Shown in pieces: positions 1,980 through 46,030 of a stretch of 64,000 bases of DNA; position 1 is the first letter of the stretch, and each line of letters opens with the position of its first letter. The notes under the pieces are model-generated. The model was not told where the DNA came from. It saw only the letters and a program-made list of their open reading frames with translations, and did not search any database. The stretch is from NCBI GenBank assembly GCA_018817425.1, contig JAHITX010000011.1, forward strand, positions 1 to 64,000, in the 5' to 3' direction. Origin of the DNA: Pseudomonadota bacterium. GTDB lineage: Bacteria > Desulfobacterota > Desulfobacteria > Desulfobacterales > RPRI01. Both the position numbers and the translations under genes were made by a program.

Positions 1980-3361
1980 TTAGATTACCCAAGGTGCGTT
2001 CTTCTGATTATTGTTCGATTGCTGATAAAATTTCTAATTTAAGATATTGTGAAGAAATTGTTCAATATTATGAAGATTTTATTGAACAATATAAATTGCT
2101 GGATAACAAGTATTCGTTTTCGGAAAGTGTAGACTTTGATTTTATTTTTGAACAGTTAGAGGAAAACCTTAAAATCCGTGATCGAGAATTGTTTGGAATT
2201 CCTTTTGGCATAAAGGATGTGTTTAATACAAAAGTTCTCCCCACATCTATGGGGAGTCAAATTTGGGAGGGATTTAAGGCAGGGAATAATGCTAGAATTG
2301 TTGATGAAATTGTTGATCGTGGAGGAATTGTTTTTTCAAAGACAACGACGGCAGAATTTGCAGTTCACTTTATCCAAAACAACAAAACAATTAATCCACA
2401 TAATGCTTCCCGGATCACTGGGACATCTTCGGCGGGTTCAGCTGTTGCCGTTGCATGTGGAGCACTTCCAATATGTCTTGGGACACAAACTGCAGGATCG
2501 ATCATTCGCCCCGCAAGTTTCTGTGGTGTGTTTGGATTCAAGCCTTCTTTTGGGGCTTTCGATAGGACAGGTTGTCTGAAAACAGCAGATACACTTGATA
2601 CTATTGGTTTTCTCGGTTCAGATATCTCTGGGCTCCAAAGTGCTTTCTTATCAACTTTTCAACAAGATTTAAGTTATCCTCTTGCACAAAACTTTTTTCT
2701 GGAGCAAAGAAAAAAAAGCGAGAAAGGGCTATTGAAAATAGGTGTGATCAGCGACCAATTTAAGGGGTATCAGGATTTTGATTCACATGTGAAAAATGAC
2801 TTTTCAAAGGCAGTTGATCTTTTGCAAACAAAAGGCAGTGATGTTTCTTTAATGAAAAATGTGGAATTTATAAATGATATACATGAGATGCATTACGCCA
2901 TTTATTGTAAGTCCCTTTCATATTATTTTCAACAAGAGGTAAAACAAGGAGCCGCGATAAGTAAAATAATGTCTGAGATGATTTCTTTGGGAGATCAAAT
3001 TCCTATCGAACAATATATAAGTGCGATTAAACAACAGCCTGAATATCGTCATCAGTTCGATGATGTATTTCGAGATTATGATTTTATTGTCACACCGTCA
3101 ACGGCATCTGTTGCACCGCTCATCGAGACACAGGATGAACAGACTGGAAGGTCTGTTGAAAAAGATGATACGTGTCTTATTTGGACATTTCTTGGGTATC
3201 CAACACTCAGCATTCCTGCCTTTTGGTCAGAAAAGCATCAAATGCCTTTTGGGCTGCAGATCATTGCTCCGAAATATTGCGACTTGCCACTCTTGGAATT
3301 TGGTGAACATATAATGAAATGTTTGAGTGATGATGTATATGACGAATATGGAACCATTTGA
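1976..3361 (+). CDS. amidase-signature family hydrolase
   Basis: Member of the amidase-signature (GatA-like) family, which hydrolyses amides through a Ser-cisSer-Lys triad. Visible elements are the Lys in GIPFGIKDVF (about Lys80), the serine-rich stretch GTSSAGSAVAVA (about residues 150-158) and the nucleophile region GTQTAGSIIRPASF (Ser about 175), followed by GVFGFKPS. The length of 461 aa is normal. The start codon lies inside the stop of the sugar amidotransferase gene, so the two are probably co-translated. My inference is that it releases ammonia from an amide donor for that enzyme, as GatA does in GatCAB, or that it trims an amide on the glycan. The substrate cannot be read from sequence. 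Confidence 0.85.
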   Translation: MIRLPKVRSSDYCSIADKISNLRYCEEIVQYYEDFIEQYKLLDNKYSFSESVDFDFIFEQLEENLKIRDRELFGIPFGIKDVFNTKVLPTSMGSQIWEGFKAGNNARIVDEIVDRGGIVFSKTTTAEFAVHFIQNNKTINPHNASRITGTSSAGSAVAVACGALPICLGTQTAGSIIRPASFCGVFGFKPSFGAFDRTGCLKTADTLDTIGFLGSDISGLQSAFLSTFQQDLSYPLAQNFFLEQRKKSEKGLLKIGVISDQFKGYQDFDSHVKNDFSKAVDLLQTKGSDVSLMKNVEFINDIHEMHYAIYCKSLSYYFQQEVKQGAAISKIMSEMISLGDQIPIEQYISAIKQQPEYRHQFDDVFRDYDFIVTPSTASVAPLIETQDEQTGRSVEKDDTCLIWTFLGYPTLSIPAFWSEKHQMPFGLQIIAPKYCDLPLLEFGEHIMKCLSDDVYDEYGTI

Positions 3362-3367
3362 GAATAT

Positions 3368-4447
3368 ATGAATATTATAAGAATTGATGATGCTAACTTT
3401 GAAGAATTTTGGCAATTATTTATCAAAGAAAATATAAATGTAGGGGTTTTTTATTCACTTACTATTTTAAATCAAGAATTGGAATATGGCAAAAAGAATG
3501 AAGCAGAGAACAAATCATTTATAATTTGTATAGATAATAGTCCTGTTGCAATAGTGCCCCTACTTCTTGAAAAATCTGATGGTTTAAGGTTCTTCTGGCC
3601 CAATTTAGGTGTAAGCCCCTTGTTTTGCCCTGTAGTTAGCTGTTTGTTGGGTCAAAAGATAAGACGAAAAATAAGGAACTTTGCTTTTGAGGAAATTCAT
3701 AGCCTGGCAAATCAGTTTGAGGTTGCAAAAGTTATGCTGTCTATCCATCCGTCTGAATATTTTTATGAAAAAGAGTATTTCAATTATTTAACTAAATATG
3801 GATTTATAGATGCTTCTATTGGTACTCAGATAATAGATTTGACAGAAAAATTGGACACATTGAAGGCAGGCCGCCGTAAACATTGTAAGGCTTTAGTTAA
3901 TAAAGGTTTAAGGGAGTATACGTTTTTTGTGATGGACAAAGATTGTGCTGACTATGAAATACACGAAAGATATCGGTTAATGCATGCTAAAGCTGCCGGC
4001 AGGGTCACAAGAACCAAAAAAACTTTTGATTTGCAGTATGAATCGCTCACCAAAGGTGAAGCCACTTTGATTGGCACTCAATATCGTGGAAAAGATGTTC
4101 AGATTATCTATTTTGACCATCTTAACCAATATGTTAATTACTCTTCTTCTGCAGACGACCCTGATTTCAATAGCTGTGATGTTCCAACAGCTCACTCATT
4201 ATTATGGTATGCCATTGAGTACTTTAAGGATAAAGGGTTTAAGTATTTTGAGTTGGGTTCGCAGTTTTATGGACACCAGTTATTTAACCATCCTTCAGAA
4301 AAGGAGATTAATATTTCATTTTTTAAAAGAAGTTTTGGTGGAATGACAGTTCCTTTTTTTATGGGTGTTAAATATTATAACGAAGATTATATGAAAGCTG
4401 ATATGGAAAACCATTTTCAAAAATTGGTTAAAAGCAGGCAAGTATAA
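3368..4447 (+). CDS. FemAB/GNAT-like acyltransferase
   Basis: 359-aa protein resembling the FemAB-like peptidoglycan/exopolysaccharide acyltransferases built from paired GNAT folds. The C-terminal half contains the run YAIEYFKDKGFKYFELGSQ followed by a lysine/phenylalanine-rich strand (SFFKRSFGG), a layout typical of this group. Enzymes of this kind transfer an aminoacyl or acyl group from tRNA or CoA to an amino sugar or peptide. It starts six bases after the amidase stop, so it belongs to the same operon. A role in acylating an amino group of the surface glycan is inference. Confidence 0.65.
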   Translation: MNIIRIDDANFEEFWQLFIKENINVGVFYSLTILNQELEYGKKNEAENKSFIICIDNSPVAIVPLLLEKSDGLRFFWPNLGVSPLFCPVVSCLLGQKIRRKIRNFAFEEIHSLANQFEVAKVMLSIHPSEYFYEKEYFNYLTKYGFIDASIGTQIIDLTEKLDTLKAGRRKHCKALVNKGLREYTFFVMDKDCADYEIHERYRLMHAKAAGRVTRTKKTFDLQYESLTKGEATLIGTQYRGKDVQIIYFDHLNQYVNYSSSADDPDFNSCDVPTAHSLLWYAIEYFKDKGFKYFELGSQFYGHQLFNHPSEKEINISFFKRSFGGMTVPFFMGVKYYNEDYMKADMENHFQKLVKSRQV

Positions 4448-4511
4448 AACCACACATCGATGTGTAATCCTTTGTATGTTGAATTAAAATTTTAGTTTTG
4501 ATGGAATTTTT

Positions 4512-6167
4512 GTGAAAAATAAAATAGCTGTATTGTTGAATCATCCGAAGGATTTTGATTTTATAAAAAAAAAAATTGGGAAAAATATTTTACTTATTGC
4601 TCATGAGCAACATACTCGTCAAATTCTCAAACAGGTTTCATTAGAGTATTTTTATGAACCGAGTCAAGGTGATCCTGCAAAATTTGATGAAGTAAAATAT
4701 TTTACTTTGAATTGGCACCGTGATGAAAATGGAAGAGATTTGTCATTTAATCAGGGTATTTCGCCAGGGCAAATTATCAGCGGCTCTGCATGGATTGCAT
4801 TTGCCAGCTATTATCGGGAATATAACGCCCTTAAGAGGTGCTTGGAACAGATAGATATCCTCAATGTCTCCAAAAATGAACATCCCCGGTTTCTCCAGGT
4901 GGCCAAAACTTTTGGCGACCAAGTTCGAATATACGATCCTGGGCACTCGCAACCTTGTTTGAAAAGTGCGTGTGCAGAACGTGTTTTGAATGAATTTCCA
5001 TTGATTAGACGTTTTTCTTTGGTGGCTCGGTGTCTTCAGAAATTGATAATGCCGTTGGTGAGACAACGAAAACACCTTTATGTACCGGACTGGACTAGTG
5101 ATAAGGTTGCGCGCAATGATCCGCATGGGTTATGCCAGAACTCGGGAATGCCCTGGAAAGGTTTCTACTTTTCGCATAAAACCAATTTTTTCAAAGAAGC
5201 AGAGCAAGTGTTTCCGGAAAAATTGGGTGAGCATGCTGCTGTGTCTCACCTGGGGGAAGTTCTGAGCAGAATCGGAGCCAAGTGGGATGACAATCTGCTT
5301 TTTTTATGCAGCAAATACCTTAAGGAAACTTATCTAAAGTATAGGTCGATGTTTATAAGAACATACGCCATTTACCGGGAATTGCTTCATTATTATCAGC
5401 CCAGTCTGATCTCGGTTCCAGGCGAAGCCTTCGAGCCTTATACCATTATCCTTCAGATAGCCAAATCAATGGGAATTACTACCCGGTATCTGGGAGATGG
5501 GTTCGGGATTTTGGCAACAGAACCTTTATTCTTAGACGATACTGGAAAAAATTGGTTGTTTGATGAATTTGCCGGGCTTGGCAAGGGAGGGCGGGATAAT
5601 TATCTCCTTGGTGGGGCAAGACCTGAGCAATGTTTGCTAATGGCAGCCCCGTTGTTAAGCCATCATAAAAATTTGCCGGTTCAGGATAAATGTTATGATG
5701 CGATTGTCATGACATGGATACCCATGCATTGGAATCCTTATTCCCGAGAGGAATTTGGCGGGCAAATGACAGCAGATGTTATCCGTTTACTGATGGCGCT
5801 TGGTAAACAAAGGATTGCCGTGAAAATCAAAGCAGAATCTCAACGTGGATTTTATGAAACAATACTTAAGGCCGAAGGGCTTTTAGAAAAAGTCGAAATT
5901 CTTTCTGGAATGTTTTATAAGCATGTCCTGAAAGCGGACATTATTATTGGTGGAATTTCCAGTGCTGTGGCAGAATCTTTTTATCATGGGATTCCTTATT
6001 ATATTTATGAACCATATGAAAATGGTTATTCAAACGCCATGATTGAGAAATCATGTATTGTTAGTCCAGAACCTGTGTCCAGAACTATTAATGATTTGAA
6101 AATTAATATTATTAAAGGACGCATTGCCGTGGGAGTAACCCGTGAATATATGTTTGGAAGTGCTTAA
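4512..6167 (+). CDS. putative GT-B-type surface-polysaccharide glycosyltransferase
   Basis: 551-aa protein without a family I can name firmly. The C-terminal third has a donor-site-like run (DIIIGGISSAVAESFYHGIP) resembling capsule, polysialyl and glycerophosphate transferases, in which a Ser/Glu-containing loop precedes a helix near the nucleotide site. No signal peptide or membrane segments are evident. The start is GTG 4512 with only a weak upstream GGA; no better in-frame start is visible nearby. It lies between the FemAB-like gene and the ABC flippase. A transferase acting on the same cytoplasmic glycan is likely; sugar and linkage are unknown. Confidence 0.5.
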   Translation: MKNKIAVLLNHPKDFDFIKKKIGKNILLIAHEQHTRQILKQVSLEYFYEPSQGDPAKFDEVKYFTLNWHRDENGRDLSFNQGISPGQIISGSAWIAFASYYREYNALKRCLEQIDILNVSKNEHPRFLQVAKTFGDQVRIYDPGHSQPCLKSACAERVLNEFPLIRRFSLVARCLQKLIMPLVRQRKHLYVPDWTSDKVARNDPHGLCQNSGMPWKGFYFSHKTNFFKEAEQVFPEKLGEHAAVSHLGEVLSRIGAKWDDNLLFLCSKYLKETYLKYRSMFIRTYAIYRELLHYYQPSLISVPGEAFEPYTIILQIAKSMGITTRYLGDGFGILATEPLFLDDTGKNWLFDEFAGLGKGGRDNYLLGGARPEQCLLMAAPLLSHHKNLPVQDKCYDAIVMTWIPMHWNPYSREEFGGQMTADVIRLLMALGKQRIAVKIKAESQRGFYETILKAEGLLEKVEILSGMFYKHVLKADIIIGGISSAVAESFYHGIPYYIYEPYENGYSNAMIEKSCIVSPEPVSRTINDLKINIIKGRIAVGVTREYMFGSA

Positions 6168-6254
6168 GTAAATACATTTATCAGGATCTTTTTCTTTCAT
6201 TCTTATGCTATGCTTGCTGCGACAGGTCGTCATTTAATTTTAATCGGATAAATT

Positions 6255-8021
6255 ATGTTTAATATTTTTCGAGGTTTTTTTAGTCTGTATCCTTTTCAGG
6301 TCAGTGTCTTGTGTATATCGCTGTTGTGTATGAATTTGATAGAAGGAATTGGGCTTGGATTGCTGATTCCAGTATTTCAAAAACTTATCGGCGCCTCAGA
6401 TGCTTCCAGCCGCTTCATTGAATGGTTTGATCGAATGTTTTTTTATATACACCTGAAACCCACCTTTTTGAATACCTTGATTTTATTGTGTGTTGTTTTT
6501 TTAATAAGGTGTGCTGTTTCTTTATGGGGGAGGCATATTAGTACTAAGATATCTTCAGATTTTCAGTTTGAAATAAAACAAAAAACTTATAAAAAACTGT
6601 TGGATGCACGGCTTGACTTTTTCTGGGCGCATCGTCAGGGTGATTTGATGAATATTTTGACAACTGAAGCAAACAGAGCCTCGTCGGCTTTTTTCCAGAC
6701 CGCCCAATGGGTCTCAACACTGTTGTCTGTGTTTATATATATAGGATTAGCTATATTTATATCAGGGTGGCTGGCTTTAGTTGCTGTGATAGTTGCTATT
6801 GCTGTCTTATCTCCACTTACTCTGATAGCCCGAAAGGCCAGAAAATATGGTGATCTGACAACCGAATTGAATGAAGAAATTCAACATGAGCTTCTCAATG
6901 TTTTAGGAGCCATTAAGGTTTTGAAAGGCGCTTCAAATGAAAAAGATGCATTGCGACGATTTAAAGTGCAAAATAAGCTATTCAGAGATGTCTGGTACAA
7001 AATAGCCTTTAGTGCGAATTCGATTAACATCTATTCACAGCCCATAGCCGTAATAATATTGAGCTTTTTTATCTATGCCGGTGTCAAGTTAAATGTTGGT
7101 ACTGTAGAGATAATGGTTTTTTTACTGGTGCTTTTACGATTGATCCCCACCATAGCAGCCCTTCAGGGGCTGCAGCATAATGTAAACAGTAATATGCCGG
7201 GATATGAACGTATTACCTCCCTTTTACGGGAATTGGATAATGCAGGAGAACGACAGGGAGGCTTGAAAGTGAATCCCTTGGAAAGGAAAATAGAGTTCAA
7301 GGGAATATCGTTTGAATATACTGAAGGTAAACGAATTCTGAATGAATTAAGCCTTAGCATTCCGGCAAATAAGACCACATCCATCGTAGGGCCGTCAGGT
7401 GCTGGAAAGTCAACTCTAGTAGATTTGATTCTGGGGTTTTATACTCCTCAGAAAGGAAAAATCCGCATCGATGATCAGAACCTTGAAGCAAGTGACCTGA
7501 ATTCATGGCGGAATCAAATTGGATATGTGTCCCAGGAAGTTGTGTTGTTTAATGATAGCATAAAGGCCAATATTTCATGGGGAGATGAAAATATATCTGA
7601 TGAAGAAATTGTCGCAGCTGCCAAAATGGCAGCTGCCCATGAATTTATTCTTGAATTAAAGAATGGTTATGACACGGTGATTGGTGATCGAGGTGTTAAG
7701 ATATCAGGAGGACAGCGGCAGCGACTTGCGCTGGCCCGGGCATTGGTAAAGAAGCCTAAAATTTTAATCTTAGATGAGGCAACCAGTTCCTTGGATCATC
7801 ATTCTGAATTGGATATAAAACGGTCAATAGAGGTAATGAATCGCTCTAAACAAATAACAATCATCATAATTGCTCATCGTTTTACAACCGTACAGGAATC
7901 TGACCAGATATTTGTTCTGGACCAGGGGAGGATCGTTGAACAGGGCAACTGGGAACAACTAACGTCAAATCAGGGCGGGTATGTTGCCCAAATTAATTCA
8001 GGAAAGGAAGAAATTAATTGA
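6255..8021 (+). CDS. ABC exporter half-transporter (MsbA/PglK-like flippase)
   Basis: 588-aa fusion of an N-terminal membrane domain (about six helices over residues 1-310) and a C-terminal ATPase. The ATPase shows Walker A GPSGAGKST (Lys about 385), signature ISGGQRQRLALARAL and Walker B LILDEATSSLD, then the H-loop IIIAHRF. This organisation fits homodimeric lipid or lipid-linked oligosaccharide flippases such as MsbA and PglK. In this locus it is the best candidate for moving an undecaprenyl-linked glycan across the inner membrane; I see no Wzx-type flippase in the window. The stop overlaps the next start (TTGA). Confidence 0.9.
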   Translation: MFNIFRGFFSLYPFQVSVLCISLLCMNLIEGIGLGLLIPVFQKLIGASDASSRFIEWFDRMFFYIHLKPTFLNTLILLCVVFLIRCAVSLWGRHISTKISSDFQFEIKQKTYKKLLDARLDFFWAHRQGDLMNILTTEANRASSAFFQTAQWVSTLLSVFIYIGLAIFISGWLALVAVIVAIAVLSPLTLIARKARKYGDLTTELNEEIQHELLNVLGAIKVLKGASNEKDALRRFKVQNKLFRDVWYKIAFSANSINIYSQPIAVIILSFFIYAGVKLNVGTVEIMVFLLVLLRLIPTIAALQGLQHNVNSNMPGYERITSLLRELDNAGERQGGLKVNPLERKIEFKGISFEYTEGKRILNELSLSIPANKTTSIVGPSGAGKSTLVDLILGFYTPQKGKIRIDDQNLEASDLNSWRNQIGYVSQEVVLFNDSIKANISWGDENISDEEIVAAAKMAAAHEFILELKNGYDTVIGDRGVKISGGQRQRLALARALVKKPKILILDEATSSLDHHSELDIKRSIEVMNRSKQITIIIIAHRFTTVQESDQIFVLDQGRIVEQGNWEQLTSNQGGYVAQINSGKEEIN

Positions 8022-31989: not shown

Positions 31990-34305
31990 TTACGTTACTG
32001 TCAACATATCATTTAACACTTTACCCAGGTCATTGTCATTAAAAGGCTTGGGCATCATGCCTTTGAAACCATATTCACGAAAATTTGACATGACCGGATC
32101 ATCAGAGTAACCGCTGGAAACGACGGCCTTTACTTCAGGATCTATTTCAAGCAATATCTTTATAACATCCTTTCCTCCCATACCACCGGGAATGGTTAAG
32201 TCCAGTATGATGGCATCATAGGGTTCTCCGGATTCCCGGGCTTTTTTGAACATTGCAATTGCTTCATCGCCATCTTTTGCGAAACCTGCTTCATAACCCA
32301 GCATCTCCAGCATTTCTTCAACCATCATTCTTAAATATTTATCATCATCCATCATAAGTATTTTACCATTGCCTGTTAACAGGGCAGGTTCTTCTTTTGT
32401 CTGAATTTCTTTTCCGGAAGCAGGCAGGTAAATGTAAAATGTAGTTCCATAATCTGGTCGAGAGTTTACCGATATGTGCCCGGCGTGCTTTTTGATAACA
32501 GAATAGGCTGTTGCAAGTCCGAGACCCATTCCCGTTTGCTTGGTTGAAAAATAAGGATCAAATATCTTTGAAAGATAATTTTCGGGTATGCCTATCCCAT
32601 GATCCTTGATAGTAATCATGATGTATCTGCCCGGTTGGATAGGCAGGTTATGTTTCTCTTCTATTAGTTTGTTTTCGGCACGAATCTGTATGACTCCACC
32701 ATCCGGCATAGCCTGGTTCGCGTTTATAACAATATTGTTAATGACCTGGCTTATCTGTCCTGCATCGGCCTCAACCGGCCAGAGATTATTTGCTATAGAA
32801 AAATCGCATTTTGATTTTGAGCCGGTCAATACAAAGAGTGAGGACTCTTGCAGAATTTTAGCAATTGAATAAACTTCCTTTACAGGTGCTCCGCCTTTAG
32901 CAAAAGTCAATAACTGCATTGTTAGTGTCTGTGCCCTCTTAGATGCAGCTTCCGTAGCACTCAAAAGATCAAATATCTTATTGCCAGATTTCACATTCAT
33001 CTTAGCAAGGGAAATATTTCCCAAAATGACTGTGAGTATATTATTGAAATCATGAGCTATGCCTCCTGCAAGTATCCCAACGGATTCAAGTTTTTGAGCC
33101 TTCAAAATATCTTCTTCCGTACGTTTGCGCTCGGAAATGTCATCGAACACCACGATAAAATACTCCTTATCCGGTGAATAGACGGAGAAATCAAACCAAA
33201 CGTTTATGGCGCTAGCATAGTATTCGAAGCGCTCTGGCTGGCCGGTCAATGCCACACGGGCAAAGCGTTTTAACAACTCGGAATCGGCTTCACGGATGCC
33301 GGGAATGACCTCTGAAACCTTCTTCCCGACAACATTATTCAATCCCGTCTGGGTTTTGAATGCATTGTTGACAACAAGATAGATAAAGTCCTGCGGTTGG
33401 CCGTTCTCGAAAAGCATCCGGCAATACGCGAATCCCTCCAACATATTTTCAAAAAGCGTCCGATAGCGTGTCTCGCTCTCACGAAGCGCCGTTTCTCTTA
33501 CCTTTAAGGATTCCGCCATATTATTAAAGGCTTTTGCAAGTTCACCTATTTCATCTTCTGTCTCAACAGGTACCTCCTCGACCACTCCTTCCGTTCCTAA
33601 TATTTTAACACTTTTAGTTAATCTGTTAAGAGGTTTTGTTATTCTATTTAATGCGATGTATGCAGTTGCAGAACCAATTATCAGGAAAACAATACCCATC
33701 AGGATGCTTTTAAATAAAATATCATTGAACTGCTTATGCAGCATTTCCTTATCCATCGTAATCTTGACAAATCCAATAAGACGGTCACTTTTCTGATGAG
33801 GATTTTTAATAAAAAACATGGATTCTTTTACAAGGTGACCTGAGCTTGAGATTACAGGTGCCCAGAATTCTACATAGCTCTTATCCTCAAGATAAAAGGG
33901 GGAGGCAGACTTTTTCAATTTCTCAAATATCTTATTTCTTCCTTGTCCATCTCTTTCGTTTGACTTTTCTGAAATTCTTGTCTTAGGTCTTTCTTTACTA
34001 TTCAACAACTTCCCATCCAGATTAAACACAGAAACATCTAAGACATTCTCCTGTTGGAAAATTCCCTCCGCAGGGCCCTCAAGCAGTTCTTTATTTTCCG
34101 AAAATACACCAAGCCTTGAGTTATAAGCAAGAACGCTTGTAAGTACTTTTCCATCTCTTATAAGATTGTCTGTCAGGGTTTTAACCTGGTGATGAATAAA
34201 TAAAGACGTGAATGAAACAGAAATAACAAATATAAAAAGGGAAATAGCAGCAAAGACCTTTATGCGGAAATTTTCATTCAAGATTTTAAGTAAATTCAGC
34301 CTCAT
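31990..34305 (-). CDS. membrane hybrid sensor histidine kinase with receiver domain
   Basis: 771-aa inner-membrane hybrid kinase. The order is TM helix (about 18-40), periplasmic sensor region, second TM helix (near 190-215), HAMP, a PAS domain, HisKA with GGIAHDFNNILTVILGN (phospho-His), HATPase with GIGIPENYLSKIFDPYF and GMGLGLATAYSVIKKH, and a C-terminal receiver with LDLTIPGGMGG (phospho-Asp) and the conserved Lys in MPKPF. The receiver is not followed by a DNA-binding domain, so output must pass to another protein. The ATG at 34305 has AAAGGA in front and lies just after the stop of the upstream binding-protein gene; a longer start at 34356 overlaps it. Confidence 0.92.
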   Translation of the reverse strand: MRLNLLKILNENFRIKVFAAISLFIFVISVSFTSLFIHHQVKTLTDNLIRDGKVLTSVLAYNSRLGVFSENKELLEGPAEGIFQQENVLDVSVFNLDGKLLNSKERPKTRISEKSNERDGQGRNKIFEKLKKSASPFYLEDKSYVEFWAPVISSSGHLVKESMFFIKNPHQKSDRLIGFVKITMDKEMLHKQFNDILFKSILMGIVFLIIGSATAYIALNRITKPLNRLTKSVKILGTEGVVEEVPVETEDEIGELAKAFNNMAESLKVRETALRESETRYRTLFENMLEGFAYCRMLFENGQPQDFIYLVVNNAFKTQTGLNNVVGKKVSEVIPGIREADSELLKRFARVALTGQPERFEYYASAINVWFDFSVYSPDKEYFIVVFDDISERKRTEEDILKAQKLESVGILAGGIAHDFNNILTVILGNISLAKMNVKSGNKIFDLLSATEAASKRAQTLTMQLLTFAKGGAPVKEVYSIAKILQESSLFVLTGSKSKCDFSIANNLWPVEADAGQISQVINNIVINANQAMPDGGVIQIRAENKLIEEKHNLPIQPGRYIMITIKDHGIGIPENYLSKIFDPYFSTKQTGMGLGLATAYSVIKKHAGHISVNSRPDYGTTFYIYLPASGKEIQTKEEPALLTGNGKILMMDDDKYLRMMVEEMLEMLGYEAGFAKDGDEAIAMFKKARESGEPYDAIILDLTIPGGMGGKDVIKILLEIDPEVKAVVSSGYSDDPVMSNFREYGFKGMMPKPFNDNDLGKVLNDMLTVT

Positions 34306-34315
34306 TTCATTTCCT

Positions 34316-35218
34316 TTAGTTAATGACCCTTGCTTTCCTGATAACTTTTTCTTCAATACTAATTCCTAACTTTTTTGCTACATTAAGATTAATCGTTATG
34401 ATTGCTTTCCTTGCATCTACCTGCTTACCGTTTAATATATTACTTCCAGAGAGTATCTTTTTAGCCATCTCTCCTGCCTGAGAACCCATATCAAAAGCAT
34501 CTACGCCTATCGACATTAGCGCTCCAATCTCCACATACTTTTCCGAAAATGCAATGATAGGTATTTTGTTTTCAAGGGAGAATAGAAGCATAAATTCAAC
34601 TGTTTCAGGGGTAATAACCGTCAGATCCGGGAGCATCCAGAAGGCATCTATCTTTCCTTCCATATCCTGTATTAATTGAGGAACATCCTTGGAATTATAA
34701 ACTTGCTTATCAACCAGTTCAATAGCAAATTTACCAGCGGCATCTTTTGACTCTTTTGCAAGATGGCCTGTTCTATCCTTGTCATATAAAAGGCCGATAG
34801 CTTTTAATTCCGGCATTACGGATAAAAGAGTAGCTAACTGCTCTTCCTGGGAAATATGCATACCGACACCGACGATATTCTTTTCCCCGGAGAGTATAGA
34901 CAAGGGATTTAAGACCATGACATATATAACTGGAATATCTTTTATTCTTTTTATCTTCAAGAGGGCGTCCATCCCTATTGCAAGAACCATATCGGGACTG
35001 ATCATATTGATCTGTCTTGCAACATCTGCACCTTGCAATTCTGAGATAATAAGCCTTTTAATCTGGGTATCGCAAACATTTTTGAAACCCTCGATGGCAT
35101 CTTCGTACGGTTGTACTCTGCTACTTTGGACGACCACAACCTCTTGTCCGGCCCAGGCTAAATCCTGACAAAGAGTTAAAAATATTAAAATAACCAGTAT
35201 GGAAAGTTTTCTTATCAC
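34316..35218 (-). CDS. periplasmic ABC-type substrate-binding protein
   Basis: 300-aa protein of the ABC_sub_bind family with a signal peptide (KLSILVILIFLTLCQDLAWA, cleavage near residue 23). Its body shows the two-lobed binding fold, with VLAIGMDALLKIK and later IPIIAFSEKYVEIGALMSIG. No ABC permease or ATPase lies beside it; instead the next gene, nine bases downstream, is a membrane sensor kinase. That pairing suggests a ligand-sensing role in which the bound protein signals to the kinase. The ligand is unknown. It is transcribed divergently from the TonB-dependent receptor. Confidence 0.85.
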   Translation of the reverse strand: MIRKLSILVILIFLTLCQDLAWAGQEVVVVQSSRVQPYEDAIEGFKNVCDTQIKRLIISELQGADVARQINMISPDMVLAIGMDALLKIKRIKDIPVIYVMVLNPLSILSGEKNIVGVGMHISQEEQLATLLSVMPELKAIGLLYDKDRTGHLAKESKDAAGKFAIELVDKQVYNSKDVPQLIQDMEGKIDAFWMLPDLTVITPETVEFMLLFSLENKIPIIAFSEKYVEIGALMSIGVDAFDMGSQAGEMAKKILSGSNILNGKQVDARKAIITINLNVAKKLGISIEEKVIRKARVIN

Positions 35219-35297
35219 TATATTCTCATATGCTGGCTTGGAATGTATGCAAACGAATTCTCAAGTTTTTGTAAAAAAATATATTAATTGCTTGAAA

Positions 35298-35340
35298 ATA
35301 ATAAATTAAATTGATAATAAATTAAAATAATAATAAATTA
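35298..35340. repeat. three ATAATAAATTA copies phased at 16 bp
   Basis: The 11-mer ATAATAAATTA occurs at 35298, 35314 and 35330, exactly 16 bases apart, inside the AT-rich region between the divergent binding-protein and TonB-receptor genes. The last copy ends 34 bases before the receptor ATG. It could be a set of protein-binding sites or only AT-rich slippage. Confidence 0.6.
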
Positions 35341-35374
35341 TTAACATAAATTATTTGTTCTGAAAACTCTTTTT

Positions 35375-37348
35375 ATGAAGAAAACAGAAATGAATTATTC
35401 ATGTAGCCATTTTCATAAAATATGCATCTTCTTGCTTTGTTTTGTTCTTACAATGACTGCCTTTTGTGGGGCTTTCGCTGCCCAGTCTCAAGATGAAATG
35501 GATGTTCTTCGCCTGTTTTATAAGGAAAAAGATCTTGTTGTGTCTGCTACCAGACATCCTAAACCCATTTCTCAGGTTGCGGAAAACATCACGGTTGTCA
35601 CTGCAAAAGAAATAGAGGAGATGAATGCCCATACGGTGGCGGAAGTTCTTGCAAGAATACCCGGACTGTTTGTTGTTTCCAGCCAGGGTACAGGCATTTT
35701 CGGCTCAACTTCCCTCACAAAAATTCAGGGTACTGAAGACATGCACGTACTTGTTCAGGTGGATGGGATGACCTGGAATTTCTTAAGCAGCGGAGCAGCC
35801 GAGACCAATTCAATTCCTGTCGGCATTATTGAGCGCATAGAGGTCATTAAAGGACCGGCATCATCTGCCTGGGGTTCAGCCCTGGGAGGTGTTGTTAACA
35901 TCATAACAAAGGCAGCGGGAAGCTCTGAAAGACCTTCTGGTTCAGTAAGCACTTCTTATGGTGAAAAAAATACGCAGGATTACAGGGCCGAGATCTTTGG
36001 AAAAGAAGGAATTGTGGGTTATTATCTGTATGCCGGCAGGCAATATTCAGAAGGTCAGATGTCTTCGAGAGACTTTGATACCAATAGCTTTTATTCAAAA
36101 TTTCATATCCCTTTTTCAGAAAATATGGCCATGGGTTTTAGCATGGGCTACAGTGACCCGCAAAACTCACTGGGTGATTTCCCCACCGGAGACATCAGTT
36201 CAACAAACAGCAGCCGAACTTTTTTTACAACAGCTTACTTTGACGCATCCATTACCGAGAAATTTGATTTGAATATATCATTACATAATTTCAAACAAAG
36301 AAGCGATATAGTGAATAAGGCCTTGGGGCTGGGGCTTTATGGTACGCTCGGGCAATTTGTTTCTGATAACCTTTATGAAGAAAAAACTACCGGAGGAAGC
36401 GGCAAACTTGTATATAAGCACGGAATGCACACAGCCGTTCTTGGTGTTGATGCTGACAGTGGTAAGCTCGATCAGACATTTGTCTCAGGGGCCTATCTAC
36501 AATCGAAAAATGCTCCGGCAAAATCAATAACACATCCCGATGTTGACCGGTGGGCGGTATACTTTAACGATACTATAGTAATCGACAGATTGTCGATTAC
36601 ACCCGGTATCCGCTACGATCATAACAGCATTACCGGCTCCTTTACAAGCCCCTCTCTGGGAGCTACCTACCGGCTTGGTGAAGATTCAATTTTACGGGCT
36701 TCTGTGGCAAGAGGCTTTACCATGCCTCCCCTTTCCTGGACCTCAGGAGGAGGATTATTCCTTGATCCGAATTCATCCCTTAAGCCTGAAAAGGTCTGGT
36801 CTTATCAGGCAGGTGCGGAATCAACCGCTTTAAGGTATTTCTGGGCTAAGGTTATGGTGTTTCACCATAAGATACAAGATGTCCTCAAAAAGGAGCCGTA
36901 TGCTGGAGGAGCACCGGCATTTAATGATTTGATTATCAACAGCGGGTCAAGCAGGCGGCAGGGAATTGAGCTTGAAGCGGAAACGGTTCCCATATATAAT
37001 TTTTCTTGCCGGTCCGGGTTTGTCTATGTGGATATTAATCCTGCCACCGAGGAAGGATCTGAAAGAATTTACACATGGAATATAGGTTTAAAGTATAATG
37101 ACAAAAAATCTTTCTATGCTCAGCTCTTCGGCCACTATGTGTGGTGGGACTTTAATTCTGCGGCAGGGGCAAGTTACGATGATTTTATATGGGACTTTAA
37201 TCTAAGCAAAAAAATCTGCTCTAACCAAAAAACTGCAACGGAAATATTTTTTACAGCTCACAACATATTTAACGGATCTCAATATACCTTTAGCGATATT
37301 AAAAATCCGGAAAGATGGCTTGAAGCCGGAATACGATTCTCATTTTAA
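35375..37348 (+). CDS. TonB-dependent outer-membrane receptor
   Basis: 657-aa outer-membrane receptor. A signal peptide (hydrophobic stretch about 18-35, ending AFAAQ) precedes a TonB-box-like DLVVSATR. The plug domain follows (ITVVTAKEIEEMNAHTVAEV, then ERIEVIKGPASSAWG and GGVVNIITK). The rest is beta-barrel with the terminal aromatic RFSF expected of barrel insertion. The general form is that of BtuB/siderophore-type receptors; the ligand is not evident. It lies between the sensor pair and the RiPP precursor, so it may take up a metal complex or the mature peptide. That link is inference from position. Confidence 0.92.
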   Translation: MKKTEMNYSCSHFHKICIFLLCFVLTMTAFCGAFAAQSQDEMDVLRLFYKEKDLVVSATRHPKPISQVAENITVVTAKEIEEMNAHTVAEVLARIPGLFVVSSQGTGIFGSTSLTKIQGTEDMHVLVQVDGMTWNFLSSGAAETNSIPVGIIERIEVIKGPASSAWGSALGGVVNIITKAAGSSERPSGSVSTSYGEKNTQDYRAEIFGKEGIVGYYLYAGRQYSEGQMSSRDFDTNSFYSKFHIPFSENMAMGFSMGYSDPQNSLGDFPTGDISSTNSSRTFFTTAYFDASITEKFDLNISLHNFKQRSDIVNKALGLGLYGTLGQFVSDNLYEEKTTGGSGKLVYKHGMHTAVLGVDADSGKLDQTFVSGAYLQSKNAPAKSITHPDVDRWAVYFNDTIVIDRLSITPGIRYDHNSITGSFTSPSLGATYRLGEDSILRASVARGFTMPPLSWTSGGGLFLDPNSSLKPEKVWSYQAGAESTALRYFWAKVMVFHHKIQDVLKKEPYAGGAPAFNDLIINSGSSRRQGIELEAETVPIYNFSCRSGFVYVDINPATEEGSERIYTWNIGLKYNDKKSFYAQLFGHYVWWDFNSAAGASYDDFIWDFNLSKKICSNQKTATEIFFTAHNIFNGSQYTFSDIKNPERWLEAGIRFSF

Positions 37349-37438: not shown

Positions 37439-37455
37439 TTGGCATAAACTTTGTG
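37439..37455 (+). promoter_or_regulatory. sigma-54-like -24/-12 promoter for the precursor peptide
   Basis: TTGGCAT-AAACT-TTGT matches the sigma-54 pattern TTGGCAC-N5-TTGC except for the last base of each block, with exact GG-to-GC spacing. It would start transcription about 12 bases further on, giving a leader of roughly 90 nt before the precursor ATG at 37556. No enhancer-binding protein gene is adjacent. Confidence 0.45.
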
Positions 37456-37499
37456 ATATTTAATGAAGCTGCGTTAAAAAAGGTTATAACTTTTTGCAA

Positions 37500-37519
37500 A
37501 CATGTTAAGACCAACATGT
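37500..37519. promoter_or_regulatory. inverted repeat in the precursor 5' leader
   Basis: ACATGTT-AAGACC-AACATGT has perfect seven-base arms with a six-base loop, about 37 bases upstream of the precursor start. It could be an operator or an mRNA hairpin. Confidence 0.45.
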
Positions 37520-37555
37520 AATATAAACAGCATTTATAAAAAAAGGAGGTATGTT

Positions 37556-37681
37556 ATGGCAGAAGAAAAAAGAGAAGAAACCAAAGAACAAATAGCAGTA
37601 CTTGATGAAGGCATTAAGATGGATGATATTGTAGATTCTTTTGGGATTTGTTGTTCTGGCCCACTTACTCCGTTTAGATAA
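37556..37681 (+). CDS. 41-aa RiPP precursor peptide (geopeptide-like)
   Basis: Short gene too small for routine calling. The start ATG 37556 has a strong AAAGGAGG seven bases upstream. The peptide has a charged, Lys/Glu-rich leader (residues 1-29) and a distinct C-terminal core GICCSGPLTPFR with adjacent Cys32-Cys33, two Pro and a terminal Arg. A terminator-like hairpin and then a radical-SAM/SPASM maturase gene follow, the classic layout of a modified-peptide system with excess precursor. From memory the CC-x-G-P-x-x-P ending recalls geopeptide precursors, which I cannot confirm here. The core is presumably cross-linked or otherwise modified at Cys or neighbouring residues, then cleaved; no protease gene is adjacent. 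Confidence 0.8.
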   Translation: MAEEKREETKEQIAVLDEGIKMDDIVDSFGICCSGPLTPFR

Positions 37682-37691
37682 TTAATTTTTT

Positions 37692-37724
37692 AAAAAAGGG
37701 GGAGTGCCGCTTCCCCTTTTTTTT
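37692..37724 (+). terminator. Rho-independent terminator/attenuator between precursor and maturase
   Basis: AAAAAAGGGG pairs with CCCCTTTTTT around a short GC-rich loop, and eight T end the structure. It sits 11 bases after the precursor stop and 18 before the maturase start, so most transcripts should stop here while some read into the maturase. Confidence 0.85.
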
Positions 37725-37741
37725 AACTTTCTCTATACTCT

Positions 37742-39049
37742 ATGAAATTTTCACGATACCTCAAGGTATATCCTTACGAAGAAAGCCCAAGCCAACTGTT
37801 GCTTTTTTCCACCCGTAAGATGTCAAAGATCATCCTTAATAAAGAAACGTATCAGGCCATTGAAAATAATGTTGAGCTTTCTCCTTCCGATGAGGCTTTG
37901 TTATCAAAGCTTGGCATGATAGTTCATGACAAAGAGGAGGAAAAGCAGGCCGTTTTCAGACTTTTCGATAATCTTAATACAAAAAATAACGGTGTGCATG
38001 TCATAGCTGTTCTTAATCTGGACTGTAATTTTGCATGCACATACTGTTATGAAGGGGGCATGAAGGGAAAGCTCTATATGTCGGATGAAACTGCGGATCA
38101 TCTTGTAGATTTCATCAAAAAAAAATTCCCGCGCCATAAAAAATCTCTTCTTATAGATTTTTTCGGAGGAGAGCCCCTTTTGAGCATTGGCCTTATTAAA
38201 CGTATTTCCAAAGCATTAAGGTCATTTACCGAAAGCAGAGGAGCCTCTTACAGCTTTACCCTTGTCACAAATGGTTCTCTTTTTACCAAAAAGACGGCAG
38301 AGGAGCTGGTTGCCTTAGGGCTTGAAGGTGTTAAAATCACTTTAGACGGCCCTGCCGAAACTCATAATCAATCAAGGCCTTTTAAATCAGGTGCCAAAAG
38401 CTTTGCTACCCTCATCAAGAATATCAAAGAGACTTGCGATCTTGTAAAAATTGGCATAGGTGGAAATTTTACCAAGGACAACTACGATAAATTTCCTTTG
38501 CTTCTTGATTATATGGCAAGAGAAGGGCTAACGCCGGATAAAATTGCCTCAGTAAAGTTTGACCCTGTAATGAAACAGCCCGAAGGGAATTTTTCGCTGC
38601 CCGAATACGGAAGCGGCTGTACTTCAGTTAATGAGCCATGGCTGATGGGTGTTGTTGCGTACTTGCGTGAAGAGATTTTAAAAAGAGGATACAATACGCA
38701 AAAGATTATGCCCATGACCTGCATGGTAGAATCTACAAACTCCTATGTGGTAAATTTCGATGGCGTTGTTTGCAAATGTCCTGGTTTTATAGGTAAAAAA
38801 GGTTATGAAGTCGGAGATCTTCTGACAGGCACAAAAGATTGTGCCTCTTATAAGCCCGGTATCTGGAAAAACGAGGACTGCGCCGGTTGTGAATATTTGC
38901 CTCTTTGTTATGGAGGATGTAGGTATATGACGTTTTTGCGCAATGGAACTATAGATACGGTTGATTGCCAAAAAGCCTATCTTGATGCCTCACTTGAAGC
39001 ATTGGTCAAGCAGGACATTAAATATAAATTAAAAGCGGATAACCGATAA
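37742..39049 (+). CDS. radical SAM/SPASM peptide maturase (geopeptide-type)
   Basis: 435-aa radical-SAM enzyme. Residues 1-90 form an N-terminal region likely to hold the precursor leader. The 4Fe-4S motif CNFACTYC (Cys95, Cys99, Cys102) is followed by FFGGEPLL and TLDGPAETHN, typical of peptide-modifying anaerobic maturases. The C-terminal SPASM region carries further cysteines (CKCPG, CAGCEYLPLCYGGC and a last Cys in DTVDC) for auxiliary clusters. It starts 60 bases after the 41-aa precursor. Known relatives form thioether, C-C or C-O bonds, or epimerise residues, in short peptides. Which bond is made here is unknown; the general class is clear, the geopeptide subtype is from memory. Confidence 0.9.
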   Translation: MKFSRYLKVYPYEESPSQLLLFSTRKMSKIILNKETYQAIENNVELSPSDEALLSKLGMIVHDKEEEKQAVFRLFDNLNTKNNGVHVIAVLNLDCNFACTYCYEGGMKGKLYMSDETADHLVDFIKKKFPRHKKSLLIDFFGGEPLLSIGLIKRISKALRSFTESRGASYSFTLVTNGSLFTKKTAEELVALGLEGVKITLDGPAETHNQSRPFKSGAKSFATLIKNIKETCDLVKIGIGGNFTKDNYDKFPLLLDYMAREGLTPDKIASVKFDPVMKQPEGNFSLPEYGSGCTSVNEPWLMGVVAYLREEILKRGYNTQKIMPMTCMVESTNSYVVNFDGVVCKCPGFIGKKGYEVGDLLTGTKDCASYKPGIWKNEDCAGCEYLPLCYGGCRYMTFLRNGTIDTVDCQKAYLDASLEALVKQDIKYKLKADNR

Positions 39050-42452: not shown

Positions 42453-45005
42453 ATGAACTTATTTAAAAAACACCCTACTCTTTTTATGGGAATAGGCATC
42501 ACTATACTTTTTTTATGTATAAGCTTATTTCGTACCGATTTTCTTGATACTCTTGAATATAAACTCTACGATGCTATGATGGGATTACGCGCAGACCCTG
42601 AATCATCAAGCAACATAGTAATAGTTGATATAGATGATGATTCGATTGAAAAAATCGGTCGATGGCCCTGGTCACGTGATATTATTGCGAATGGCATCAA
42701 AAAGATAAATTTGGGAAATCCCAAAGTAACAGGGCTCAATCTTATACTCAGCGAACCTGAAGAAAGCACCGGATTAAAAACTGTTGAAAAACTGGAAGAC
42801 AAATTTACAGCCATTTTTTCAAAAGATACCGGAAAAACATATAGCAATTACCTTAATGTTTTGCATGAGACCAGAGAAAAACTGGATAATGACAAAAAGC
42901 TTGCCCAGGCAATCAGCGAATCCGCCAATATTGTTTTGCCATTTTATTTCAAAGAATCTGCCGTAACGGGCAATGATACAAAAGAAGCCGATGATATATT
43001 ATACGAATATTCAATCCAGAAAATAAAAAGTCCTTCCGGCGCGTTACACTACCGGGCTGATAAAATAATACTTCCTCTTCCTTCATTTCTTAAAGCATCG
43101 GCAGGTATAGGTCATCTTAACTTCGGCAATGACATGGATGGTATTGCAAGAAGAGAACGTCTCGTCTATGAATGTCGTGGACTTTATTATCCATCATATA
43201 CCTTAAAGCTTGCTTGTGCCTACCTTGATATTCCAAGGGAAAAACTTTCAGCCGAATTGGGTTCAAGCGTTACTCTCGGTAATCTTAAAATACCTACTAC
43301 TTTTGCTTCGGAGCTTCTTATTAATTTTAAAGGTCCCCGCGGCGCATTTAAAAAATATTCATTTTTTGATGTTATAAACGACAAAATTCAGCCGGATGTT
43401 TTTAAAAACAAGCTTGTTCTTGTCAGTGCATCCGCAGCCGGAATCATGAACCCTATCAGCACGCCAACCGATCCGGCTTTACCTGTGGGCGAGTTTTCCG
43501 CTAATGCCGTCTGGACAATACTTAACAACAATTTTATCTTGCAGCCATACTGGTCACCGGTTGTTGAACTTGCGGCCATAATTATAATAGGCCTTATTAT
43601 CACATTTGTTTTTTCAAGATTAAAAGCAAAAACAGTTGGTGCCGCATTCATTATAATGATCATATTGCTTATAGGAAGTTCGGCATACTTTTTTGCTTCC
43701 AAAGGATACTGGGTCCGCGTTGCTTATCCTGCTCTTGAGCTTGTCATTGGCTATATTGGAATAATAAGTCTTAGATATTTTGTAACCGAATCCAAAAAAG
43801 ATAAAATCGAAGTGGAATCGGCTGAAACAAACCGGATGCTTGGGCTTTCTTTTCAGGGTCAGGGCATGCTTGATATGGCCTTTGATAAATTTCGGCGAAT
43901 TCCGGTAGATGATCAGATGAAAGATATTCTTTATAATCTTGCACTTGATTATGAAAGAAAAAGACAATTCAACAAAGCCGCAGCAGTATATGAATATGTG
44001 GAAGGACATGACAAAAAATTTAAAGATGTTTCGGAAAGAAAAAAGAAACTAATCAAAGCCAGTAATACTATGGTATTCGGGGACGGTATGTTCGGTGCAT
44101 CCCCTTCTTCAGACGGTTTTCTTTCAACAGCCACAGGAACAAAACCCACACTGGGCAGATACGAAATACAAAAACAACTCGGAAAAGGAGCAATGGGAAT
44201 TGTCTACCTGGGGCTTGACCCCAAGATAAACCGGACAACGGCAATAAAAACTTTCCAGTTCAGTGAAGAAGACCATACGTTGGAAGAAATTCAAAATATG
44301 AAAGAAAAATTTTTCCGGGAAGCAGAAAGCGCCGGAACTCTTTCACATCCGAATATTGTAACTATTTACGATGCCGGAGATGATCAGAACCTCGCATACA
44401 TAGCTATGGAATATCTTGAAGGTGAAGACCTGGAAAAATATACCGTAAAAGAAAATCTGCTTCCTATCCCCAAAGTTATTGATTATATTGCAACCGTTGC
44501 TGAAGCACTTGATTATGCCCACCAAAAAGGAATTATTCACCGCGATATCAAACCGGCAAACATAATGCTTTTAAAAAGCGGGATAGTTAAAATAACTGAT
44601 TTCGGTATTGCGAGAATAACTGCTACTTCACAGACTCAAACCGGTGTTATCAAAGGCACGCCGTATTACATGTCGCCTGAACAGTTTTCAGGAGAAAAGG
44701 TTGATGGAAGATCTGATATATTCTCTTTAGGAACAATGCTGTTCCAGCTTTCAACCGGTCAATACCCTTTTGCCGGGGACAGCCCTGCTGCATTGATGAA
44801 TCAAATCATGAATGTAAAACATCCCGACCCGAAACAGATCAACCCAAAGATAATAAAATCTCTTGTAACAGTCATTGACAAAGCATTGGAAAAAGAAAAG
44901 GAAAAACGTTATAAACGGGTATCTATGATGGCATCAGATCTTAGAGCAATCGGCAAAAGAATTGATGAGGTTATCGCCAGGATGAAACCGAAAAGTAATG
45001 TTTGA
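42453..45005 (+). CDS. CHASE2-sensor Ser/Thr protein kinase
   Basis: 850-aa membrane kinase. One N-terminal TM helix, a periplasmic CHASE2 domain starting VDIDDDSIEKIGRWPWSRD, and three TM helices (about 365-445) lead to a cytosolic linker with TPR-like helices (about 460-530) and a Hanks-type kinase. The kinase has GKGAMGIVY, the ATP lysine in TAIKTF (about Lys599), HRDIKPANIML (catalytic Asp about 698) and DFGIARI, then GTPYYMSPEQ. It is followed on the same strand by PP2C, FHA and DUF89-like genes, forming a phospho-signalling set. The sensed stimulus is unknown. Confidence 0.93.
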   Translation: MNLFKKHPTLFMGIGITILFLCISLFRTDFLDTLEYKLYDAMMGLRADPESSSNIVIVDIDDDSIEKIGRWPWSRDIIANGIKKINLGNPKVTGLNLILSEPEESTGLKTVEKLEDKFTAIFSKDTGKTYSNYLNVLHETREKLDNDKKLAQAISESANIVLPFYFKESAVTGNDTKEADDILYEYSIQKIKSPSGALHYRADKIILPLPSFLKASAGIGHLNFGNDMDGIARRERLVYECRGLYYPSYTLKLACAYLDIPREKLSAELGSSVTLGNLKIPTTFASELLINFKGPRGAFKKYSFFDVINDKIQPDVFKNKLVLVSASAAGIMNPISTPTDPALPVGEFSANAVWTILNNNFILQPYWSPVVELAAIIIIGLIITFVFSRLKAKTVGAAFIIMIILLIGSSAYFFASKGYWVRVAYPALELVIGYIGIISLRYFVTESKKDKIEVESAETNRMLGLSFQGQGMLDMAFDKFRRIPVDDQMKDILYNLALDYERKRQFNKAAAVYEYVEGHDKKFKDVSERKKKLIKASNTMVFGDGMFGASPSSDGFLSTATGTKPTLGRYEIQKQLGKGAMGIVYLGLDPKINRTTAIKTFQFSEEDHTLEEIQNMKEKFFREAESAGTLSHPNIVTIYDAGDDQNLAYIAMEYLEGEDLEKYTVKENLLPIPKVIDYIATVAEALDYAHQKGIIHRDIKPANIMLLKSGIVKITDFGIARITATSQTQTGVIKGTPYYMSPEQFSGEKVDGRSDIFSLGTMLFQLSTGQYPFAGDSPAALMNQIMNVKHPDPKQINPKIIKSLVTVIDKALEKEKEKRYKRVSMMASDLRAIGKRIDEVIARMKPKSNV

Positions 45006-45208
45006 TTGTGTATTCATCTGGTATAATATGCATGGCAGGGTGTGAATAACACTTTAAAACTTTATAATTAATCTTAAAAGAAATATATATTTATCTTGCT
45101 TGACCCCAACAACTTTTTATTATATAAGGGAAAAGTTAGATTGTTTTAAATTTAACAGATCGAATCCACATTATCTTTTGTATTCGTATATATAGGAACA
45201 TAGCTTAC

Positions 45209-46030
45209 ATGGCAGTTGTTGAATCAGCAGGCATTAGTGATGTCGGAAGAAAAAGAAAACAGAACGAAGATGCCATATATATCGACAATTCCATGAACCT
45301 TTTTGTAGTTGCTGATGGTATGGGCGGACACAATGCCGGAGAAGTGGCCAGCTCTATTGCTGTGGATACTATCCGTGATTATATGAAACGTTTTGAAGAT
45401 AATACTATTGGTGTCGAGGAGCTTAAAGATTCTGATATCTCTCTTTCAAAAGACGCTAACCGGCTTATTTCAAGTATTCATCTTGCCAATAAAGGAATTT
45501 ATAGTTTATCTAAAAGCAATGAAGCATATGAAGAAATGGGAACAACTGTTTCAGCGGTTCTTTTTACTGAAAATAATTTAATTGCAACCAATGTGGGCGA
45601 TAGCCCGATTTATCTTATACATAATGGTAGCATAGAACTACTATCTGTACCACATACTGTTTTAGCTGAACAGATGGCTATTGATCCGCAAAGGGCCAAA
45701 ATGCTTGAGCACCATTTCAAGCACATGTTAACCCGGGCTGTCGGCATAAAAGAAACGATAGAGCCTGATATATACGAAACTCCCTACTTCCAGGGAGACG
45801 TATTAGTATTAAGCTCAGACGGACTATCAGACAATGTTACGCCTGAAGAGATACTTGAAACAGTAAGACAAGAACACCCTCAGAAGGCATGCAGTTTGCT
45901 CGTTGATCTTGCAAATGAACGCGGCGGCAATGATAACATAACCGTTATTGTTTTAAAGGTTAAGAATAAAAAAAATCGAAACGGCCTGATGAAAGGATTG
46001 ATGTCAAAGCTAAAAAACTTTTTTAAATAG
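45209..46030 (+). CDS. PP2C-family protein phosphatase
   Basis: 273-aa Stp1-like Ser/Thr phosphatase. Metal-binding aspartates are in NEDA (about Asp21), VADGMGGHNAGE (about Asp36), SSDGLSDN and RGGNDNITV (about Asp242). No TM segment. It would reverse the action of the CHASE2 kinase encoded 200 bases upstream. The C-terminal tail is strongly basic. Confidence 0.93.
   Translation: MAVVESAGISDVGRKRKQNEDAIYIDNSMNLFVVADGMGGHNAGEVASSIAVDTIRDYMKRFEDNTIGVEELKDSDISLSKDANRLISSIHLANKGIYSLSKSNEAYEEMGTTVSAVLFTENNLIATNVGDSPIYLIHNGSIELLSVPHTVLAEQMAIDPQRAKMLEHHFKHMLTRAVGIKETIEPDIYETPYFQGDVLVLSSDGLSDNVTPEEILETVRQEHPQKACSLLVDLANERGGNDNITVIVLKVKNKKNRNGLMKGLMSKLKNFFK

Follow-up and report, generated by a model that had tools for sequence, protein, structure and literature searches.

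A geopeptide-type peptide–maturase pair and its conserved neighbours, a TonB-dependent receptor, a binding protein and a sensor kinase, in a Desulfobacterota genome

Geopeptides are described in the NCBIfam collection by two models, TIGR04280 for the radical-SAM maturase and TIGR04229 for the precursor. The peptide–maturase pair studied here belongs to this known, uncharacterised family. Our search for literature on "geopeptide" or "TIGR04280" returned no paper, which is weak evidence given that subscription journals were outside its scope. The nearest solved fold is that of the CteA/CteB (SCIFF ranthipeptide) system, whose maturase has an RRE, a radical-SAM domain and a seven-Cys SPASM domain and acts on a Cys substrate. 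SCIFF precursors contain six cysteines, whereas geopeptides normally contain one CC pair, and we know of no TonB module in the Gram-positive CteA/CteB system. RiPPs coupled to their own TonB receptor are known from lasso-peptide loci with a TonB receptor and an isopeptidase; the cyclase, the isopeptidase and the sigma/anti-sigma pair of such loci are absent here. CD0873 and TrpX (PF04392) bind Tyr or Trp in ABC importers, whereas no ABC permease is conserved at geopeptide loci. In CteB the leader forms a β-strand on the RRE, and the product is a Cys-Thr thioether (PMC8326336). Re-import of a RiPP by a TonB receptor has a precedent in methanobactin and MbnT (PMC9601215). Methanobactin resembles the geopeptide in its Cys-based core and in an operon that encodes the TonB transporter, but it is produced by MbnB/MbnC chemistry, whereas the geopeptide would depend on a radical-SAM enzyme and is a putative copper ligand at most.

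The window, a stretch of 64,000 nucleotides of contig JAHITX010000011.1 (assembly GCA_018817425.1), carries the pair downstream of three further genes. The features of the locus are listed below.

31990..34356, minus strand: hybrid sensor histidine kinase (Pfam: sCache-like periplasmic sensor, HAMP, HisKA, HATPase, receiver)
34316..35218, minus strand: periplasmic substrate-binding protein, PF04392 (ABC_sub_bind; Pfam)
35375..37348, plus strand: TonB-dependent outer-membrane receptor, Plug and β-barrel (Pfam PF07715, PF00593)
37440..37454, plus strand: sigma-54-like promoter site TGGCATAAACTTTGT, one mismatch to TGG[CT]A-N7-TGC
37543..37549, plus strand: ribosome-binding site AAGGAGG (from the sequence)
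37556..37681, plus strand: precursor gene (geopeptide-like, 41 aa), an ORF with homologues adjoining related maturases
37592..37612, plus strand: leader motif IAVLDEG (consensus EIxVLDEG; V/I in 44/44 precursors, L in 39/44, G in 42/44)
37649..37654, plus strand: codons of Cys32-Cys33, the sole invariant core feature among precursors
37692..37722, plus strand: intrinsic terminator between precursor and maturase, a 14-bp stem followed by a T-run (−18.0 kcal/mol, z −3.5)
37742..39049, plus strand: radical-SAM/SPASM maturase, TIGR04280, 435 aa (residues 1–82 RRE-like, 95–102 CX3CX2C, 327–409 seven-Cys SPASM)

The preliminary description had proposed a 41-codon gene with a strong ribosome-binding site, a terminator after it and a 435-aa radical-SAM/SPASM enzyme with CX3CX2C. 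All three were confirmed at the positions given above. Their assignment to a RiPP pair of the geopeptide type is supported, as the maturase passes the TIGR04280 cut-off and CC ORFs occur beside related maturases. The precursor frame runs from the ATG at 37556 to a stop codon ending at 37681 and encodes MAEEKREETKEQIAVLDEGIKMDDIVDSFGICCSGPLTPFR. The pair shares with the NCBIfam geopeptide system a maturase above the cut-off, the gene order, the leader and the CC core.

The maturase matches TIGR04280 ("geopeptide radical SAM maturase") over residues 1–429 and model positions 1–428 of 428, scoring 555.5 bits; the curated cut-off is 400 bits over the full length. The next-best profiles (CefB, TIGR04463, Clo7bot and PapB), all of maturases with Cys-containing peptide substrates, score far below their curated cut-offs. 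The radical-SAM cysteines are C95-x3-C99-x2-C102, and the SPASM pattern comprises C327-x13-G341-x4-C346, C380/C383/C389/C393 and C409 (seven Cys), in agreement with the general form CX3CX2C and CX9-15GX4C ... CX2CX5CX3C ... C. All these cysteines are invariant across 33 maturase homologues. At least 10 true relatives were present among the matches listed in one scan of genome contigs (80 loci). Neither a close maturase paralogue nor a second copy of the precursor was found in the window's own genome. In the AF2 model of the maturase (pLDDT 90), residues 1–82 form a bbb-aaa(a) arrangement (pLDDT ~93), that is, the N-terminal three-strand, three-helix PqqD-like domain of an RRE, although this domain searched alone against Pfam gave no match. 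The best fold match of the model is CteB (5why, Z 27.7); as the alignment spans residues 4 to 427, it includes the N-terminal domain. The alignment with TigE starts at residue 1. Since Cys-containing peptides are the substrates of the closest families and folds, and CteB makes a Cys-Thr thioether, the chemistry at the CC pair would most likely be a thioether; a product of the sactipeptide/ranthipeptide type is only suggested by these families and folds.

The window's precursor has no match in Pfam or NCBIfam. TIGR04229, with its curated cut-off of 30 bits, did not match it even at E values of 1–10, and most other precursors that we found also fall short of the cut-off. Weak matches to this model were seen in 10 of 25 relatives; when ten relatives were scanned singly, one passed (Geotalea, L074, 40.5 bits). 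We searched 51 maturase regions with one strict leader plus CC pattern. Maturases lacking a CC small ORF had been named in advance as the observation that would count against the proposed system, which withstood this test: on the sense strand within 700 nt upstream, such an ORF was present at 46 of the 51 loci, compared with 0–1 of 51 in four control regions (antisense, downstream, far). At most of the loci missed by the strict pattern, a CC peptide was recovered by profile search (those of G298 and G278 among them). Precursors outside the pattern include one ~1.8 kb upstream (L176), one on the opposite strand adjoining the receptor (L173) and one with a long Lys-rich leader (L069). Maturase relatives below the cut-off in G049, G153 and G219 all have a CC peptide, and in G049 and G153 the receptor lies within a few kb. 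When 13 genomes were searched whole, every precursor match was located at geopeptide loci. The window locus itself combines the leader and CC core with TIGR04280 and is thus a geopeptide-type pair.

The CC pair is invariant in all 44 aligned precursors, although the search pattern itself required it. The tail after CC is short (7–10 residues); it has G/A at position +2 in 28 precursors, P at +6 in 22 and R at +8 in 24. The conserved leader motif is probably the strand bound by the RRE. Modification of Gly-Pro and Thr-Pro, suggested earlier along with that of the cysteines, is not supported by this comparison: Gly-Pro occurs in only 10 of the 44 sequences and the threonine varies, so that both were rejected as modified sites on grounds of conservation; CC alone is invariant.

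Upstream of the precursors, a strict sigma-54-like motif was found in 8 of 46 cases, with 0.26 expected from shuffled sequences. A sigma-54 promoter can therefore be ruled out as a general feature of these loci, and the window with its one mismatch offers a weak indication that its site may be functional. The sigma-70 promoter scan produced no more matches than shuffled sequences. Regulators of the NtrC or LuxR type adjoin several geopeptide loci.

The genes at 31990–37348 were absent from the preliminary description, which had stated that no protease or exporter is adjacent. That statement is true but incomplete, as the receptor, the binding protein and the kinase belong to the system. The receptor scores 75.7 bits with PF07715 and 115 bits with PF00593, as a TonB-dependent receptor should. 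Its sequence is closest to Cir, BtuB and siderophore receptors and fits no named family; BtuB (TIGR01779) was ruled out at 136 bits against a cut-off of 599.7. Since no Rfam element was found in the window, there is no argument from a B12 riboswitch. The AF2 model of the binding protein (pLDDT 93) has the fold of CD0873/TrpX, with which it also shares the sequence family, and no ABC permease gene lies nearby. Among the kinases, HATPase is present in 30/30 members and HAMP in 25/30; some have a periplasmic sensor domain and about half have a receiver.

In profile-based counts that allowed for contig ends, the TonB-dependent receptor stands beside the pair in 48/48 informative loci, the PF04392 binding protein in 47/47 and a histidine kinase in 44/46. 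Clustering of the neighbours at the 51 loci gave the families of the receptor, the binding protein and the kinase in 46, 42 and 39 loci, respectively. The next real gene family occurs at 3 of 51 loci at most, and two clusters of five reflect nothing but the antisense strands of the binding-protein and maturase genes. A tblastn search with the window's genes likewise placed the receptor, the binding protein and the kinase beside nearly every maturase, and never the downstream DHH-CBS, GGDEF and CHASE2-kinase genes. The geopeptide loci share no conserved gene for an inner-membrane permease, an exporter or a protease. The receptor is on the same strand in loci of the window type and divergent in several other lineages; the linkage thus outlives rearrangement. 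The peptide–maturase pair makes up one half of a conserved module; the other half is in neither TIGR04280 nor TIGR04229. No description of a radical-SAM peptide linked to a TonB receptor, a stand-alone binding protein and a kinase was found in the literature searched, most subscription journals being outside its scope. Separately, the window encodes a CHASE2-Ser/Thr kinase and, directly after it, a PP2C phosphatase (42453–46030), a combination unlinked to geopeptide loci elsewhere.

The receptor clade, defined by scores of at least 590 bits, was traced through 395 genomes of the phylum. It is present in every one of the 31 genomes that have the maturase and in 1 of the 364 that lack it (Fisher p 3e-45). 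Within a set of 60 closer relatives, ten genomes have a maturase, and the same ten have the receptor clade. According to plug-domain counts in whole genomes, the complete genome G340 has one TonB receptor in all and another, G155, has two, each beside a maturase. The joint chance of the adjacency of receptor and maturase in seven genomes is ~1e-21. The receptor and maturase distances correlate at 0.88 (maximum of 2000 permutations 0.35), a value uncontrolled for species phylogeny. Three members of the clade have no adjacent maturase: that of G211, which retains the receptor, the binding protein and the kinase while the peptide and the maturase are absent from the genome, and extra copies in G210 and G354, whose maturases are elsewhere in the genome. 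These sets fit an extracellular product but are no proof of it. Among the precursor matches from the 13 genomes searched whole is an orphan with CIC for CC (L209:9444-9530), located beside the extra receptor set of G210.

This gene content is read most simply if the ligand of the module is the peptide product itself or something that this product carries. We lean towards a modified CC peptide with a dedicated receptor, binding protein and kinase that would import and sense its product. The terminator would provide more precursor than enzyme. The RRE of the maturase would bind the leader strand of the precursor, and a 5'-deoxyadenosyl radical would bring about bond formation at the two cysteines, in all likelihood as a thioether. 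Release of the product could fall to a housekeeping protease and exporter. The product, alone or with a metal or other ligand, would re-enter via the TonB receptor and be caught by the binding protein, and the kinase would signal this to a response regulator (of the sigma-54 type in some loci) that may control the geopeptide locus. Binding of the product by the receptor or the binding protein is what the gene order suggests. Sensing is likelier than bulk nutrition, since no inner-membrane permease is conserved. Proteins related to the binding protein take single aromatic amino acids as ligands, which makes a peptide of 10 residues no obvious fit.

Four other explanations have to be weighed. 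That the small ORF is spurious, or that terminator and ORF are there by chance, is hardly credible: the missing Pfam and NCBIfam matches of the window's precursor would suit it, but the idea is already contradicted by the data, given that position, ribosome site, leader and CC are kept across families and phyla against almost empty control regions. It is also unlikely, though to a far smaller degree, that the receptor, the binding protein and the kinase detect an environmental compound that has nothing to do with the peptide, their only tie to an intracellular geopeptide being its regulation or a shared promoter region. Modules of the same kind do exist without peptide and maturase, and no maturase adjoins the receptors of G211 and of the extra G210 and G354 copies. 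Such independence agrees poorly with a geopeptide-linked clade found in a single one of 364 maturase-less genomes, and with a linkage that is kept despite changes of receptor orientation between lineages. At binding-protein paralogue loci without a maturase, the receptor, the kinase and a second regulator were present in 8 of 10 cases examined, so other ligands can serve such a module as well. From these paralogue loci it would appear to be a general sense-and-import module, to which the peptide-making pair was added in one clade.

The two remaining explanations accept the peptide as the source of the ligand and concern its nature. A chalkophore-like metallophore, that is, a secreted CC peptide that would bind a soft metal (e.g. 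copper) and return via the TonB receptor, the metal status being reported by the binding protein and the kinase, is possible but doubtful. Invariant vicinal cysteines, a dedicated TonB receptor and the example of methanobactin, a Cys-derived RiPP that has a TonB transporter of its own, all speak for it, and G211, with receptor, binding protein and kinase alone, would resemble siderophore "borrowers". Yet the modification may consume the cysteines, the receptor has no conserved set of His, Met or Cys beyond the plug, and permease, storage and metal-enzyme genes are not conserved beside the locus. More improbable is trimming of the core to a small Cys-Cys cofactor or amino-acid-sized signal held by the binding protein, like PQQ from PqqA. 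In its favour are the fold of the binding protein, which is that of proteins holding a single amino acid, the short tails after CC and the presence of a TonB transporter for PQQ in PDB; but the loci have no conserved extra oxidase or protease, and no candidate apo-enzyme was found.

Geopeptides are named families without a role, and the obligate module gives the first concrete idea of the purpose of the product. The link to the receptor, the binding protein and the kinase opens this role to binding and reporter experiments. Where the locus contains the only TonB receptor of the genome, or the only two, it may be the main energised route of outer-membrane uptake; in some bacteria the geopeptide locus would be the sole TonB-dependent system of the cell. 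The bacteria with geopeptide loci include metal-reducing ones, and the precursor family is now far wider than the present NCBI model. Whether the locus represents a new design of signalling or metal scavenging, in which a single locus of Desulfobacterota-type anaerobes and Nitrospirota produces a radical-SAM-modified CC peptide, takes it back up and senses it by means of the dedicated TonB receptor, the stand-alone PF04392 binding protein and the histidine kinase, is in our judgement evenly balanced.

Several related loci deviate from the usual arrangement. Recurring loci with a binding protein, a kinase and a second regulator, or with a kinase and a TonB receptor, contain no radical-SAM genes (L198-L200, L202, L204-L207). 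L154 has two tandem near-identical precursors, 424 and 55 bases upstream of one maturase. In L069 (Nitrospirae) the usual leader is replaced by a long histone-H1-like leader rich in Lys, Ala and Thr; this precursor ends in GAACCMGKPYVLK and lies between ~290 and 52 bases ahead of the maturase start at 8001. The maturases at L168:3628-5790, L170:5019-7097 and L171:9001-11178 share a C-terminal extension of ~290 aa with the motif YLDDFID/YVDDFID; it has no Pfam match, and one of the three, searched alone, had no credible sequence match in PDB. In L195 (G013:C194, ~1447-6834), four successive radical-SAM maturases are distant relatives of TIGR04280 (187–203 bits), and a Cys-rich small ORF (GCCCMCSVTCSNGGGCTYYTPFCPSFG) is located upstream of one of them.
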